Source: Vulcanisaeta moutnovskia 768-28
GTDB lineage: Archaea > Thermoproteota > Thermoprotei > Thermoproteales > Thermocladiaceae
Assembly (NCBI RefSeq): GCF_000190315.1
Contig: NC_015151.1
Span: 2,210,509-2,274,508, forward strand
Reading direction: 5' to 3'
Length of the DNA stretch: 64,000 nt
Position numbers and translations under genes: made by a program. Below the pieces are notes generated by a model, which ran no database searches, was not told the DNA's origin, and saw nothing but the letters and a program-made list of their open reading frames with translations. Shown in pieces: positions 30,333 through 36,340 of the stretch (position 1 is the stretch's first letter; every line of letters begins with the position of its first letter).

Positions 30333-32084
30333 ATGAGCAGCTCTACATTTAATGAGTTCCTGAAACAAAGAAACCTACTATTAAACGCGGGTAGTTATGA
30401 AGAGGCTAGGTCGAACTTCAGGTGGCCACCACATGGTGAGTTTAACTGGGCTGTGGATTACTTCGATAAGTACCTAGCGGAGACCTCCATAAATCCAGCC
30501 CTTATTTACATAAATGATGAGTTATTCAAGTCAGGTGATTCAAGGATTCTCAGCTACCATGAACTTAGGGCTCGATCCAATAAATTAGCCAACGCACTTT
30601 CGGACCTTGGTATCGGCCGTGGGGATGTAATCATGGTTATGCTAAATAATAAGCCTGAGCTCTTCGAATCATTCCTAGCCCTCATGAAAACAGGTGCTGT
30701 AATTTCACCGGCAACCACCCTATTACTACCGTCGGATATTGAGGATAGGACATCAAGGGCTCACTTCAAGGCCATTATTGCAGATCCAGAGGTGGTTAGT
30801 AGGATTGATCAGATTAAGGGCAATCTCGAGAAGCTCGGCGTTAAGTACTTCATAACCCTTGGTAAGCCAGGGCCTGGATGGCTTGATTACTATGAATTAA
30901 TCAGTGGCAGGTCAGAGAACTTCCAGGGAGTTAAGACCAAGTCAGATGATTTACTCCTGGTTTACTTCACATCAGGTACCACCGCTAAACCCAAGATGGT
31001 CATGCATACACAGTCAAGCTACCCAATTGGCCATCTAACAACCATGTACTGGGTTGGTGCTAAGCCGGGTTATAAGCATATGAACATATCAAGCCCAGGT
31101 TGGGCTAAGTGGGCTTGGTCAACATTCTTCGCAGCCTTCAATGCTGGCGCCACTACCGTGGTTTATGACTATAGTGGTAGGTTTAGTGCGGCTAATCACC
31201 TAAAGATACTTGAGAGTTACGGTATTGACACACTATGCGCGCCACCAACTGTCTGGCGTATGATAATTCTCGAGGATCTGACAAAGTATAACCTTGAGAA
31301 GATTAAGAGCTTCGTGAGCGCCGGCGAACCCCTTAATCCAGAGGTTATTGAGCGTGTTTATAAGGCGACTGGTAAGTACATACGTGATGGTTATGGACAG
31401 ACAGAGACCACGCTAATGGTTGGTAACTTCCCAGGCATGAAGATTAAACTGGGCTCAATGGGTAAGCCGGCCCCTGGCTATGATATAGTCCTCGTTGATG
31501 AGGATGGAAACCCAGTCAGCGTTAATAAGGATGGGCACATAACAGTTAGGACAAGCCCAAGACCCATTGGCCTAATGATTGGTTATGATGATGAGAATAA
31601 GAATAAGGAGGTATTTAGGCTTGGCTTGTACTTCACGGGTGATGTGGCCTTCATGGATGAGGAGGGCTACCTATACTTCGTTGGCCGTGCAGATGATGTC
31701 TTCAAGTCAAGTGACTATAGGATTAGCCCATTCGAACTTGAGAGCGACTTATTGAAGCATCCAGCCGTTGCCGAGGCCGCCGTTGTACCAAGCCCTGACC
31801 CAATAAGGGGCTTCATACCGAAGGCATATATAGTCCTGAAGCCAGGCTATAAGCCAAGTAAGGACTTGGCTTACGATATCTTTAAGTTCATAAGGCTCAA
31901 CATAGCCCCATACAAGAGACCCAGGGCTATTGAGTTCGTGTCCGAGTTACCCAAGACAATTAGCGGTAAGATTAGGCGTGTTGAGCTTAGGGGTATTGAA
32001 CGTGAAAAGAGGAATAAGGGTGTTAGAAGTGAGAATGAGTACTTTGAGGATGACTTCCCCGATATAAAGCAATTGAAGGTGTAA
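30333..32084 (+). CDS. Acyl-CoA synthetase (AMP-forming)
   Basis: A 583-residue ANL-superfamily enzyme that activates a carboxylic acid to acyl-AMP and then acyl-CoA. Motifs in order: YFTSGTTAKPKMVMHT (P-loop), SPGWAKWAWSTFFA, DGYGQTETT, LYFTGDVAFMDEEGY and the hinge, FVGRADDVFKSSDYRISPFE, and the catalytic lysine in KTISGKIRR. The SPGWAKW and SDYRISPFE wording is that of medium-chain or branched acyl-CoA synthetases. A TATA box (AAATTTATAAA, about 30294-30304) lies about 30 bp before the ATG. It could feed short- or medium-chain acids into metabolism. Confidence 0.93.
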   Translation: MSSSTFNEFLKQRNLLLNAGSYEEARSNFRWPPHGEFNWAVDYFDKYLAETSINPALIYINDELFKSGDSRILSYHELRARSNKLANALSDLGIGRGDVIMVMLNNKPELFESFLALMKTGAVISPATTLLLPSDIEDRTSRAHFKAIIADPEVVSRIDQIKGNLEKLGVKYFITLGKPGPGWLDYYELISGRSENFQGVKTKSDDLLLVYFTSGTTAKPKMVMHTQSSYPIGHLTTMYWVGAKPGYKHMNISSPGWAKWAWSTFFAAFNAGATTVVYDYSGRFSAANHLKILESYGIDTLCAPPTVWRMIILEDLTKYNLEKIKSFVSAGEPLNPEVIERVYKATGKYIRDGYGQTETTLMVGNFPGMKIKLGSMGKPAPGYDIVLVDEDGNPVSVNKDGHITVRTSPRPIGLMIGYDDENKNKEVFRLGLYFTGDVAFMDEEGYLYFVGRADDVFKSSDYRISPFELESDLLKHPAVAEAAVVPSPDPIRGFIPKAYIVLKPGYKPSKDLAYDIFKFIRLNIAPYKRPRAIEFVSELPKTISGKIRRVELRGIEREKRNKGVRSENEYFEDDFPDIKQLKV

Positions 32085-32137: not shown

Positions 32138-33007
32138 ATGTCCAGCACAATAAGGAGGATTAGCCTTGGGGTAGACTGGCTTGATTATGCAATGCTTGGT
32201 GGTGTTCCAAGAGGTAATTGGCTGTTAATAACTGGTGAGCCTGGTGTTGGTAAGTCAATACTCACAATACAAGCCGCTGGAGCCAATGTGGACGCTATGC
32301 CAGTGGTCTACGTAAGCACTGAGACCAAGTTCTTCGATGTTGTTAGACAAGCGAAGCAATTCAATATTGACCTGTCAGACGCTGTGAGTCTAGCTGATGT
32401 CCTCGCTGGTAAGGTCAAGGACATGAAGACGAACCTAGTTGTTATTGATCTATTCGGTCTAGCCAGGCAATACCGTGAGTTACTCAGGGCTAGTGAGGAG
32501 GAGGGTAAGTCGAGGGCTAAGTCGCCATTGAGTATGGAGGTGGTTATGGCCAGCATTGAGAAGGCTTACGAGACACTTGGGGTGAGTGAGGAGGGTAAGG
32601 TTACAAAGGATGTATTAGTAATCATTGACTCCCTGGCTCCCATGTGGGCCCACGCGCCTGCAATGGCTAGGTTAATAACATATAGGCTTAGGCAGAGACT
32701 ATATCGCTCTAATGTCACGGTGATAATGACCAATCAATTCGCTCCAACCACCGGAATGACCTTTGGGTTCGGTGCTGAGCATATTGCGGATGCCATAATC
32801 CACATGTGGATTGAGCAGCCCGAGAAGAAGAAGGAGATTGAACGTTGGCTCATCATTAAGAAGGCTAGGTTAACAAATCACTATAGGAAGGCCATGAAGT
32901 ATGAAATTGAGCCTGAAAATGGATTAACACTTATAGAGCCTAGTATTGAGGAATTGAGGAAGTGGTTTGATCAGTATGGAGGTAAACAAGAATCAAGCGA
33001 GGAATAG
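32138..33007 (+). CDS. RecA/KaiC-fold ATPase (RadA-paralogue type)
   Basis: A 289-residue single RecA domain: SLGVDWLDYAMLGGVPRG opens the fold, then Walker A GEPGVGKS (about residues 33-40), VVYVSTETKF, and Walker B VLVIIDSLAP (about 165). A late loop VIMTNQFAPTTG matches the L2-like segment of RadA/RadB/KaiC proteins. There is no helix-hairpin-helix N-terminal domain, so this is not RadA itself but one of the archaeal recombinase paralogues, likely regulating recombination or acting as a signalling ATPase. The downstream gene overlaps by 32 bp. Confidence 0.85.
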   Translation: MSSTIRRISLGVDWLDYAMLGGVPRGNWLLITGEPGVGKSILTIQAAGANVDAMPVVYVSTETKFFDVVRQAKQFNIDLSDAVSLADVLAGKVKDMKTNLVVIDLFGLARQYRELLRASEEEGKSRAKSPLSMEVVMASIEKAYETLGVSEEGKVTKDVLVIIDSLAPMWAHAPAMARLITYRLRQRLYRSNVTVIMTNQFAPTTGMTFGFGAEHIADAIIHMWIEQPEKKKEIERWLIIKKARLTNHYRKAMKYEIEPENGLTLIEPSIEELRKWFDQYGGKQESSEE

Positions 33008-33479
33008 TGAGGGCTGTAGCGACAGGTTAATTAGAGCTATGGAGAGGTTTTTATGGACCTTAATAGGTAATGATAGTAAGGATGATGTGGTGACTGACCT
33101 TAAAATATGCGGAGATGCTGCTAGGCCATATCTAGATGTTGTTAATGGTAATGACCCTGGAAATACCCTATCAGCTGCGCTATCGTATTATCAATATGTT
33201 AAGCTCGTTAGAGGTGAGTTAAAGGTGAGTAGGGATTACTTGATTGGCATTGGTGATGATCCAAATGATCCAGGCGTAACCTATTCATTGATTATTGAAA
33301 ATATGACCCGCGCATTAAGGGCCCAGGACTATGTAACAGCGGCCTTTCTGGCCGATCTAGCCTTCATAACTAGGTCGTATGCATTATGCCTAGGTAATAA
33401 TGATAAGGATGTATGTGATTGGATCAAGAGGGCATTTACTGCAAGGGTTTTAATAATGAGAAGGACTAGCAACTATTAA
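32976..33479 (+). CDS. Helical partner of the RecA-fold ATPase
   Basis: The ATG at 32976 lies inside the end of the ATPase gene in another frame, so the two are translationally coupled. The 167-residue product is all-helical and acidic (LSAALSYYQYVKLVRGELKVS, AAFLADLAFITRSYALCLG), like a tetratricopeptide-type or adaptor domain. No family is recognised. Tight coupling suggests that the two proteins form a complex. It overlaps the convergent DUF35 gene by 14 bp. Confidence 0.6.
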   Translation: MEVNKNQARNSEGCSDRLIRAMERFLWTLIGNDSKDDVVTDLKICGDAARPYLDVVNGNDPGNTLSAALSYYQYVKLVRGELKVSRDYLIGIGDDPNDPGVTYSLIIENMTRALRAQDYVTAAFLADLAFITRSYALCLGNNDKDVCDWIKRAFTARVLIMRRTSNY

Positions 33480-33876
33480 TGGGTCTGAACTTATAACCGT
33501 AATTAATTAATCCATAGGTACCATCCATCTTCACCATCCTAAACACAACCTCAACATCAATACCTGGGTTCAGCTTGTCAGGATCCATGCAATCCACTAT
33601 CTGCCCAATAACCTTGACACCACCTAGATCCACAATACCCACTATCAATGGTTTCATCTTCTCAAACTCAACAGGTACTGAATAAAGTACTGTGAAGTTG
33701 ATAAGTTTACCAGTGCTTGGTAATGGGTACGGCTTAAACTCCCTGGAACCGCACTCACATACTGCCCTTGGTGGGAAGTATACACGGCCGCACTTAACGC
33801 ATTGAACACCCTCAAGCCTATAGTACTGGGGCATCCTCCTCCAGTACCTTGGTATGGATAATCTCTGGTCGACCAT
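33466..33876 (-). CDS. DUF35 zinc-ribbon/OB-fold protein (thiolase partner)
   Basis: A 136-residue protein with an N-terminal rubredoxin-like zinc ribbon, CVKCGRVYFPPRAVCECGS (CxxC...CxC). An OB-fold follows (GKLINFTVLYSVPVEF, PLIVGIVDLGGVKVIGQIVD). In archaea such proteins bridge acetoacetyl-CoA thiolase and HMG-CoA synthase and bind the CoA pantetheine. It follows the thiolase-like gene by 1 bp, so the two are co-translated. All four cysteines are present. HMG-CoA synthase itself is not in the window. Confidence 0.9.
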   Translation of the reverse strand: MVDQRLSIPRYWRRMPQYYRLEGVQCVKCGRVYFPPRAVCECGSREFKPYPLPSTGKLINFTVLYSVPVEFEKMKPLIVGIVDLGGVKVIGQIVDCMDPDKLNPGIDVEVVFRMVKMDGTYGLINYGYKFRPINSC

Positions 33877-33877
33877 G

Positions 33878-35035
33878 TCAGCCCACCCTCCTGAGTACTA
33901 TTGATGTCGATACCAAATCGAAGCCAGCCATATCCTGAACAATACCCAGCTCAGCCCTGCCCAGCGACTCAAAGGGCTTTACGTTCATGAGCTCCATAAC
34001 CATTAAGGCCAACTCATACATTCCCGAGGCACCACCTGGGAATCCCATGGACTTAAGCCCACCACTGGCATTAATAACTAGTTTATTACCAACATCTAAT
34101 GTACCCGCAGATAATAGCCTCGGTGTTTCACCAGGCCTTACCAGTCCCATTGATTCCAACGCCAACATGCCAAGTATACTATACGTATCATGAACCTCGG
34201 CAAGACTTACATCGCTTATTGAGACATGCGCCATCCTAAGGGCCATATTTGCAGCATCCCTAACAGAGTACAACTCAGTGAGCGAGTCTCTCTGGCCTGT
34301 GTATGTTCCGTAGGCACCAACACCTATCCCATCAATCCTTATCACAGCATCACTCTTTAACGGCTTATTGCATAGAACAACCGCGGCTGAACCATCAACC
34401 GCAGGCGCCACGTCATAAAGCCTCAATGGATCAGCAACAACCTCTGATTCAAGAACGTCCTTAAGCGTTGCCTGTTTCTTCATATAGGCAAGTGGGTTCT
34501 TACTACCTCTCTCGTGCATTTTTATTGGCCATATTGCCAAGTCCTCATAATCATACCCATACTTAATCATGTACTCCTTCATAGCCATAGCCGCCTGGGC
34601 CGCGGGTGTTACCCCAAAGAAGCCCTCATACTCATAATCAGTGATTGTTGATAAAGCCTTATTCAGCTTCACGTTAATTACATCATGCATCTTCTCAACG
34701 CCGACAACCGCCACACAGTCATAAATACCCGCCTTAACCATGTTATAGGCCTCTAGAACTGCGATACCGCTCGATCCATCTCCACTCTCGATCCTAATTG
34801 CGGGTATCCTCCTTAAGCCAACGTAGTCCATTAAATATGCGCCCAAAACACTCTGGTCCTGAAGTACCTCAGAGAAGGCATTGGCTACGTATATTGCTCC
34901 AAGGTTTGCATTACCAACCTGGTCAAGGACCTTCAGGAAGGCTTCGGCAAATAATTCCTTAAGCCCCTTCTCATAGTGCCTACTTCCTGGTACTAGGGAG
35001 TGGGCTACGATGTATACTTCTGTCGTATTAAACAC
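33878..35035 (-). CDS. Thiolase-fold protein lacking catalytic Cys and His
   Basis: The archaeal thiolase fold is clear: YVANAFSEVLQDQ, AVVGVEKMHD, DVAPAVDGSAAVVLC, AEVHDTYSILGMLALE, VINASGGLKSMGF. Key residues are changed. The nucleophile position reads RIESGDGSSG, with Asp86 where VEAACASGG has Cys, and the final motif is GFPGGASG, with Phe332 where GHPxGATG has His. The protein may therefore bind acyl-CoA without condensing it. GTG 35035 (385 residues, normal length) is preferred over ATG 35086, because the only TATA box lies between them and 35086 is upstream of it. It is coupled to the DUF35 gene and divergent from HMG-CoA reductase. Confidence 0.85.
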   Translation of the reverse strand: MFNTTEVYIVAHSLVPGSRHYEKGLKELFAEAFLKVLDQVGNANLGAIYVANAFSEVLQDQSVLGAYLMDYVGLRRIPAIRIESGDGSSGIAVLEAYNMVKAGIYDCVAVVGVEKMHDVINVKLNKALSTITDYEYEGFFGVTPAAQAAMAMKEYMIKYGYDYEDLAIWPIKMHERGSKNPLAYMKKQATLKDVLESEVVADPLRLYDVAPAVDGSAAVVLCNKPLKSDAVIRIDGIGVGAYGTYTGQRDSLTELYSVRDAANMALRMAHVSISDVSLAEVHDTYSILGMLALESMGLVRPGETPRLLSAGTLDVGNKLVINASGGLKSMGFPGGASGMYELALMVMELMNVKPFESLGRAELGIVQDMAGFDLVSTSIVLRRVG

Positions 35036-35058
35036 CAACAGTTGCCATAAATGTGAAG

Positions 35059-35067
35059 TTTTTAAAT
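35059..35067. promoter_or_regulatory. Shared palindromic TATA box, thiolase-like gene / HMG-CoA reductase
   Basis: The only A/T box in the divergent gap contains the self-complementary core TTTAAA. It is about 26-28 bp from ATG 35090 on the plus strand and about 26-29 bp from GTG 35035 on the minus strand. That is correct spacing for leaderless transcription in both directions from one TBP site. Confidence 0.6.
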
Positions 35068-35089
35068 ATTCCCTGAATATAGTCATTTA

Positions 35090-36340
35090 ATGGTTGAGGA
35101 GGCAAGCCTTGAGGATTTATTTACAAGAATTGATAATGGCGAATTGAAGCTTCATGAATTAGATAAGTTCTTTAATGATTCGAACAAGGCAACCGAGGTT
35201 AGGAGGAGGTATATTGAGACAAGGATTGGTGTGAGCCTTGAGAGTCTTGGCAAAACAGTAATTGATTTCAACACAGTAGTTGGTAAGAATATTGAGAATA
35301 CAATAGGGGCTGCCCAAATTCCTGTAGGCATTGCTGGTCCTTTACGTGTGATTGGTGATTACGCCAATGGGCTTTACTACATACCTTTGGCAACAACCGA
35401 GGGCGCCCTAGTAGCCTCTGTAAATAGGGGCACTAAGATAGTTACTGAGGCTGGTGGCGCAAGGAGTAAGGTCATTAATGATGGCATGACGAGAGCACCT
35501 GTCATAGCAGTACCGAGCGTCATTGATGCTGTTGAACTGGTTAATTGGATTAATGAACACTTCAATGAAATAAAGGGCGTGGCTGAATCAACCAGCAGGC
35601 ATGCAAAGCTTGTTAGTATTCAACCATTCATTGTTGGTAATAATGTTTGGCTTAGGTTTAAGTTCACAACTAGCGATGCTATGGGTATGAATATGGTGAC
35701 CATAGCCACAGACAAAGCCATTAAACACATACTCAGTAACTTCCCAAGGGCTCGCTTAGTTGCACTCAGTGGTAATATGTGTGTTGATAAGAAGGCAAAT
35801 GCCGTGAATTTCCTGCTTGGTAGGGGTAAGACCGTGATTAGTGAGACGGTAATACCAAGGAGTACCCTTGAGAGGTGGGGCGTCACTGCTGAGGACGTTG
35901 CCGAGGTCAATAATAGGAAGAACTTACTCGGTTCAGCATTGGCTCATTCCTATGGATTTAATGCTCATTTCGCTAATATAATTGCGGCAATATTCATAGC
36001 CACTGGGCAGGATGTTGCTCAGGTTGTTGAATCTAGCATGGGTATCACTTGGATGGAGCCTCTCGACAATGGTGACCTATATGTATCAGTAACATTGCCA
36101 AGTCTTGAGGTTGGTACTGTTGGCGGTGGTACCGGACTGCCAACACAGAGAGAAACTCTTCAAATGCTTGGTGTATATGGTTCGGGTAACCCACCTGGAA
36201 TTAATGCATTGAGGTTTGCTGAGATAGTGGCTGCTGCCGTACTTTCTGGTGAGGTTAACTTGATTCTTGCCTTAGCGAGGGATGAGCTTGCAAGGGCTCA
36301 TGAAATGCTTGGTAGGGCTGGTAAGAGGAATAGTGTATGA
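35090..36340 (+). CDS. hmgA: HMG-CoA reductase, class I
   Basis: It reduces HMG-CoA to mevalonate with two NADPH, the committed step for archaeal isoprenoid ether lipids. The catalytic set is complete: Glu104 in TTEGALVASVNRG, Lys235 in DKKANAVN, Asp308 in TGQDVAQVVE and the late His404 in RAHEMLGR. The dimer motif ENTIGAAQIPVG is also present. The 416-residue length, with no membrane segment, is typical of archaea. The ATG lies about 27 bp from the shared TATA box, so the mRNA is leaderless. Confidence 0.97.
   Translation: MVEEASLEDLFTRIDNGELKLHELDKFFNDSNKATEVRRRYIETRIGVSLESLGKTVIDFNTVVGKNIENTIGAAQIPVGIAGPLRVIGDYANGLYYIPLATTEGALVASVNRGTKIVTEAGGARSKVINDGMTRAPVIAVPSVIDAVELVNWINEHFNEIKGVAESTSRHAKLVSIQPFIVGNNVWLRFKFTTSDAMGMNMVTIATDKAIKHILSNFPRARLVALSGNMCVDKKANAVNFLLGRGKTVISETVIPRSTLERWGVTAEDVAEVNNRKNLLGSALAHSYGFNAHFANIIAAIFIATGQDVAQVVESSMGITWMEPLDNGDLYVSVTLPSLEVGTVGGGTGLPTQRETLQMLGVYGSGNPPGINALRFAEIVAAAVLSGEVNLILALARDELARAHEMLGRAGKRNSV

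Follow-up and report, generated by a model that had tools for sequence, protein, structure and literature searches.

A putative pseudoenzyme at the thiolase position of the mevalonate operon in Vulcanisaeta and other Thermoproteota

Results

The window, the whole 64,000-nucleotide stretch of Vulcanisaeta DNA analyzed here, carries on its minus strand (33878..35035) a degenerate ortholog of the thiolase found in the archaeal thiolase/DUF35/HMG-CoA synthase (HMGS) complex. We propose that its product, hereafter the pseudo-thiolase, is probably a pseudoenzyme subunit of that complex which supports DUF35 and HMGS while acetoacetyl-CoA is made in trans. On balance, we also favor a wider reading, in which the thiolase of the mevalonate complex became an HMGS-supporting pseudoenzyme more than once, each time with a substitute thiolase available, in much of the Thermoproteota, including Sulfolobaceae-like and Thermoproteales lineages.

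The mevalonate-operon thiolase lacks its catalytic residues

The pseudo-thiolase gene lies in a complete genome of 2,298,983 bp and encodes 385 amino acids from a GTG start codon; an alternative upstream ATG is also present at 35086. The protein contains the Pfam domains Thiolase_N and Thiolase_C_1, and its scores against the NCBIfam thiolase families fall far under the equivalog cut-offs (231 bits against NF053570, for which the cut-off is at least 600 bits). Using the acetoacetyl-CoA thiolase of M. thermolithotrophicus (6esq_A) as the residue reference, we found that residues 83 to 90 read ESGDGSSG and place Asp86 (codon 34778..34780, minus strand) at the nucleophilic Cys of the E-x-x-C-x-S-G motif, an assignment also obtained by alignment to 7yvy_A. 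Residues 331 to 333 read GFP and place Phe332 (34040..34042, minus strand) at the histidine of the GHP motif. The original prediction, a thiolase-fold protein with Asp for Cys and Phe for His at these coordinates, was therefore correct. In addition, the codons at 34184..34192 (minus strand) specify His282-Asp283-Thr284 where active relatives have HDC or HDA; the HD pair is retained, and Thr284 stands at the second Cys of 6esq_A, so that a third catalytic residue is lost as well, although this criterion is a weak one because many relatives with a Cys nucleophile also have Ala here. A protein with these substitutions should be unable to form an acyl-cysteine or to use a GHP histidine, and it is presumably inactive as a thiolase.

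The fold appears to be preserved. An AlphaFold2 model of the pseudo-thiolase (pLDDT 94, pTM 0.93) had as its top PDB match 6et9_C, the thiolase chain of the archaeal complex (TM 0.94, 1.6 Å). We considered Asp86 as a helix N-cap; the helix in the model begins at residue 88, so that such a role is no more than conceivable.

The pseudo-thiolase is the operon copy

The predicted pairing with DUF35 and HMG-CoA reductase was borne out. A DUF35 gene (33466..33876, minus strand; Pfam zf-ChsH2 and OB_ChsH2_C, that is, a zinc ribbon and an OB fold) lies directly downstream and begins one base past the thiolase stop codon. Its best PDB match is 6esq_E, the DUF35 subunit of the thiolase/HMGS complex (E=6e-30), in an alignment that spans nearly the full length and includes the zinc cysteines. 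A divergent gene for NADPH-dependent HMG-CoA reductase (HMGR; 35090..36340, plus strand; TIGR00533 above cut-off) is separated from the thiolase by a 54-bp intergenic region (35036..35089) between the GTG of the one and the ATG of the other. Genes for an MbcS-like acyl-CoA synthetase (30333-32084) and a RecA-like ATPase (32138-33007) adjoin the cluster, and both keep this position in other Vulcanisaeta genomes (L119, L214 and L215).

In Thermoproteales outside Vulcanisaeta, the gene is found within a thiolase-DUF35-HMGS operon, usually with HMGR divergent to it, and in Thermofilales-like and Sulfolobaceae-like genomes the gene order is HMGS-thiolase-DUF35. In Vulcanisaeta, HMGS has been relocated to another locus (408 kb in the genome studied here), and thiolase, DUF35 and HMGR remain together. 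The best match of this HMGS is chain I of 6esq, with the Glu, Cys and His regions conserved; from their sequences, both DUF35 and HMGS of Vulcanisaeta are intact. Because most relatives have the thiolase-DUF35-HMGS operon beside HMGR, the pseudo-thiolase is the ortholog of the operon thiolase, which excludes a side paralogue of some other, working operon copy. The initial description of the gene as a dead paralogue thus stands with respect to the lost catalytic residues, but the word paralogue is misleading.

The substituted gene is conserved and under purifying selection

All full-length Vulcanisaeta orthologs that we read have identical GDG and GFP motifs, and Asp86 is invariant in 22 of 22 Thermoproteales orthologs with a mean identity of 49%. 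Together, these observations rule out a sequencing error. Conservation of Asp86 should be read against the 45 other positions that are also invariant in the 22 sequences (about 12% of columns). The GHP position is occupied by Phe, Asn or Tyr in these orthologs and by His in none, so that of the two residues suggested for a conservation check, Asp86 proved constant and Phe332 did not. Restoration of both Cys and His in close relatives, the result that would have spoken against the original prediction, was not seen: both residues are absent in all orthologs examined from two Thermoproteaceae-like families. Among the positions conserved in Cys-bearing relatives, K115, H174, D214-G215, D283, N322, GGxK and others are retained, and loss is most evident at the nucleophile (A85 and C86) and the GHP histidine.

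Pairwise dN/dS within Vulcanisaeta was 0.024-0.039; a comparison with G011, which is more distant, gave 0.11, with dS there near saturation. DUF35 and HMGR showed similar values when the same genomes were paired. Conservation within the genus and low dN/dS rule out a decaying gene, and such strong purifying selection implies that the protein does something that requires its sequence. A protein that has lost its catalytic residues and is still under purifying selection answers to the description of a pseudoenzyme, and on these sequence grounds we class the pseudo-thiolase as a putative one. In three draft Vulcanisaeta genomes (L042, L043 and L044) the thiolase frame is broken at differing places, probably through sequencing or assembly errors.

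Loss of the nucleophile extends across the Thermoproteota

We collected HMGS/thiolase neighborhoods from about 100 Thermoproteota genomes and aligned 95 operon thiolases. The nucleophilic Cys is kept in 30, replaced by another residue in 54, and removed together with its loop in 11; the replacements are D, E, G, S, T, A, L and Q. Cys loss is thus phylum-wide and no lineage-private oddity. Acidic residues at this position recur in several lineages: all seven genomes of a family that we take to be Sulfolobaceae (f25) combine Asp with Tyr at the GHP position, and a sequence read after the alignment was made (G042) has Asp and retains GHP. In other lineages with Gly, Ala, Leu or a deleted loop, the His of HD is often lost. 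The sole return of Cys among the Thermoproteales orthologs examined is in G026, from another family of that order.

A tree built without the catalytic columns requires at least 4 to 5 changes between Cys and non-Cys states, and 17 residue changes. A reduced tree contains a branch that separates Thermoproteales, f25 and several further Cys-lost groups from the remaining sequences; their grouping could reflect either a single shared loss or long-branch attraction. Given this clustering and the minimum of 4 to 5 changes, we do not claim many independent losses.

Several neighboring arrangements were also seen. At loci L125, L131, L135, L138 and L172-L179, which span families f11, f16, f18, f26, f28, f30, f33, f36 and f39, an unusually long HMGS frame of about 500-560 amino acids, perhaps an HMGS-DUF35 fusion, lies beside a thiolase-like gene and has no separate DUF35 neighbor; except at L172, where Cys is kept, the thiolase-like proteins have a deleted nucleophile loop, GNP for GHP, and mostly YD for HD. 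Family f12 has HMGS loci (L145-L147, L150 and L157), mostly with a DUF35 neighbor, that have no adjoining thiolase gene, and its genomes carry a canonical Cys thiolase at another locus (L199-L203). The genome studied here contains, at separate sites, two tandem Cys-less thiolase-like genes (1202.2-1204.6 kb; L047:10162-12545) and two tandem DUF35 genes (1253.0-1254.0 kb; L046:7055-8041), and G042 has two of each in a single cluster (L098:2444-5780). These genes possibly encode a separate heteromeric DUF35 complex.

Genomes with a Cys-less operon thiolase usually encode another thiolase

A search for a second, catalytic thiolase and for HMGS, proposed with the original prediction, was positive on both counts: besides the intact HMGS, the Vulcanisaeta genome carries two bacterial-type thiolases and two archaeal Cys thiolases. 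The bacterial-type thiolase at 207.9 kb, spanning about 207.8-209.0 kb, has VCSSG, NEAFA, GHP and the C-terminal Cys. In the wider set, another thiolase is present in 63 of 66 genomes that have lost the operon Cys and in 3 of 29 that keep it. This additional enzyme is either of the bacterial type or an archaeal Cys thiolase that usually has its own DUF35. At all 41 bacterial-type loci that we read, Cys, Asn, His and Cys are retained; in the remaining genomes, a bacterial-type thiolase was scored as present when PF00108 matched below 1e-40. For the first 94 genomes, Fisher's test gave 1e-16, a value calculated on related rows. After phylogenetic correction, about 4 Cys changes and approximately three independent pairs remained (2.6 agreeing on average and none disagreeing), which is not significant, and we regard the association of Cys loss with another thiolase as suggestive.

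In four of four Vulcanisaeta genomes, the bacterial-type thiolase gene is divergent to a gene for an IdsA/GGPP-like polyprenyl-diphosphate synthase (the pair occupying L059:316-1344 and 1489-2679 in one genome, and L257, L258 and L259 in the others); the pairing was absent from the other genera checked and holds within Vulcanisaeta only. Acetoacetyl-CoA is also a normal intermediate of the 4-hydroxybutyrate carbon-fixation cycle. The cycle marker PF11794 (the 4-hydroxybutyryl-CoA dehydratase family) was detected in 25 of 54 Cys-lost genomes and 1 of 24 Cys-keeping genomes; it is associated with Cys loss but does not cover all losses, which rules out the cycle as the sole cause.

No other Cys thiolase was found in three Cys-lost genomes, G094, G154 and G083. 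G094 and G154 are near-complete 1.3-Mb genomes of family f27 whose operon thiolases have Gln or Gly at the nucleophile position; the one further thiolase-like protein in each (G094 L183:1441-2646; G154 L182:1006-2193) is of a Ser type (VENTSGSGG) that resembles ST0096 of Sulfolobus (PDB 4YZO) and is perhaps a natural Ser thiolase. The draft genome G083 has a loop-deleted copy only. A bacterial-type thiolase cannot explain every loss, because many genomes carry a Cys thiolase of archaeal type in its stead, and only the Ser-type copy is present in f27.

Discussion

We propose that the pseudo-thiolase, which has retained both the thiolase fold and its position next to DUF35, is likely to have a structural job. 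Were acetoacetyl-CoA produced elsewhere, thiolase catalysis would become dispensable, but the surface on which DUF35 and HMGS are held would not. The pseudo-thiolase dimer would then hold DUF35 and, through it, HMGS, and would line the shared CoA-binding region, to which each of the three proteins contributes in the complex of M. thermolithotrophicus. A separate Cys thiolase would supply acetoacetyl-CoA in trans; in Vulcanisaeta the supplier is probably the bacterial-type thiolase beside the polyprenyl-diphosphate synthase, and lineages with the 4-hydroxybutyrate cycle may draw on the metabolic pool. Because the same operon slot holds D, E, G, S, T, A, L, Q or a deleted loop, the retained function cannot need that particular residue. 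Of the three roles originally offered (a scaffold, a regulator, or a new CoA-dependent enzyme), the scaffold seems to us the best. Several observations sit less easily with it. HMGS lies outside the operon in Vulcanisaeta, so that complex formation there is assumed; co-occurrence with another thiolase loses significance after phylogenetic correction; and G094, G154 and G083 yielded no other Cys thiolase. In addition, Asp86 does not vary in Thermoproteales, and acidic residues reappear at this site in other lineages even though two base substitutions separate Cys from Asp. This pattern hints that the residue as such is under selection, and a ligand-sensing role is accordingly conceivable.

Such a role would make the pseudo-thiolase a regulatory subunit that binds acetoacetyl-CoA or CoA and, via DUF35, gates HMGS; the carboxylate of residue 86 would adjust how tightly the ligand is held. 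In the archaeal complex, all three subunits share the CoA site (PMC6392133), and D283, GGxK, K115 and H174 are invariant despite the lost Cys and His, all of which would suit a binding function. We nevertheless consider it unlikely, since Gly, Ala, Leu or a deleted loop in the same operon, often with loss of the HD histidine, makes a common sensing mechanism improbable, and since an invariant Asp86 is only mildly surprising when some 12% of columns do not vary. The constancy of Asp86 in Thermoproteales, together with the retained fold and several pocket motifs, could also mark an enzyme with new CoA-dependent chemistry (for example, deacylation, decarboxylation or a Cys-free Claisen step), and thiolase-fold proteins paired with DUF35 have acquired new reactions before (PMC12329534). 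This reading is disfavored, and we think it quite unlikely, because syntenic orthologs carry any of eight residues, or a deletion, at this site, a variety that argues against a common new chemistry; moreover, neither the GHP base nor the second Cys is present, and the mevalonate genes alongside suggest no obvious new substrate.

Two readings that assign a known reaction to the protein fare worse. Strong purifying selection, a mevalonate-operon location, and the three Cys-lost genomes in which no other Cys thiolase was found would all fit an acetoacetyl-CoA thiolase that is still active through a cryptic nucleophile, but loss of all three classical catalytic residues and the presence of Cys thiolases in the same genome make this highly improbable. 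A DUF35-paired retro-aldolase like Ltp2 or Sal would likewise have a thiolase fold and no thiolase Cys. In retro-aldolases, the Tyr that opens the YDHF or YDC(F/Y) motif is catalytic (PMC12329534), whereas the pseudo-thiolase has His282 (HDTY) in its place, and mevalonate thiolases are its closest matches in both fold and sequence, with aldolases scoring far lower; we give this reading almost no credence.

The thiolase/DUF35/HMGS complex itself and thiolase-fold proteins with lost residues are already known. What appears to be new is the retention, over much of a phylum, of a seemingly dead thiolase in the mevalonate complex: we found no description of Cys loss in the operon thiolase in the literature searched, which did not cover the PNAS structure paper of Vogeli et al. 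(2018).

The complex is regarded as the archaeal means of pulling an unfavorable condensation by channeling acetoacetyl-CoA. If our interpretation is true, this channeling is not universal in archaea, and the complex is kept for a reason other than channeling. If the thiolase is dead in Sulfolobaceae and Thermoproteales, these archaea must have another source of acetoacetyl-CoA, the complex must be of value in itself, for structure or regulation, and the label acetyl-CoA acetyltransferase is misapplied to this gene in many genomes. Because Sulfolobus can be manipulated genetically, the claim is directly testable, and the repeated loss would offer a natural series for the transition from enzyme subunit to scaffold.

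The closest reference is the M. thermolithotrophicus complex, in which, as described in PMC6392133 and PMC12329534, DUF35 bridges thiolase and HMGS, and residues from all three proteins form the CoA site. Its thiolase subunit (6ESQ/6ET9) shares with the pseudo-thiolase the fold (TM 0.94), the operon partners, the type of DUF35 and HMGS, and the HD and GGxK motifs; the pseudo-thiolase differs in having Asp for Cys, Phe for the GHP histidine and Thr for the Cys of HDC, in falling under the equivalog cut-off, and in the separate genomic locus of HMGS in Vulcanisaeta. The closest solved sequence, PFC_04095 of P. furiosus (7YVY; 34% identity in a full-length alignment), retains AACASG, HDAF and GHP. 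ST0096 of Sulfolobus tokodaii (4YZO) is, like the pseudo-thiolase, a crenarchaeal thiolase-like protein without the Cys (Ser instead), but it belongs to another clade, retains GHP and HD, and is not an HMGS-operon protein. The retro-aldolases Ltp2 and Sal (6OK1 and 9MYR) also show a thiolase fold bound to DUF35 without thiolase chemistry; they differ in their steroid context and in the catalytic Tyr of the YD motif, which the pseudo-thiolase lacks. In PhlABC and MucABC, thiolase-like, HMGS-like and DUF35 subunits form one complex. PhlABC provides, by analogy, the precedent for a pseudoenzyme among them: the HMGS-like PhlA, without its Cys and Glu, is kept for assembly (PMC6392133). As here, one thiolase-superfamily subunit lacks its catalytic residues, with the roles reversed: PhlA is dead and the thiolase-like PhlC is active, whereas in Vulcanisaeta the thiolase would be the degenerate partner, making PhlA a possible mirror case.
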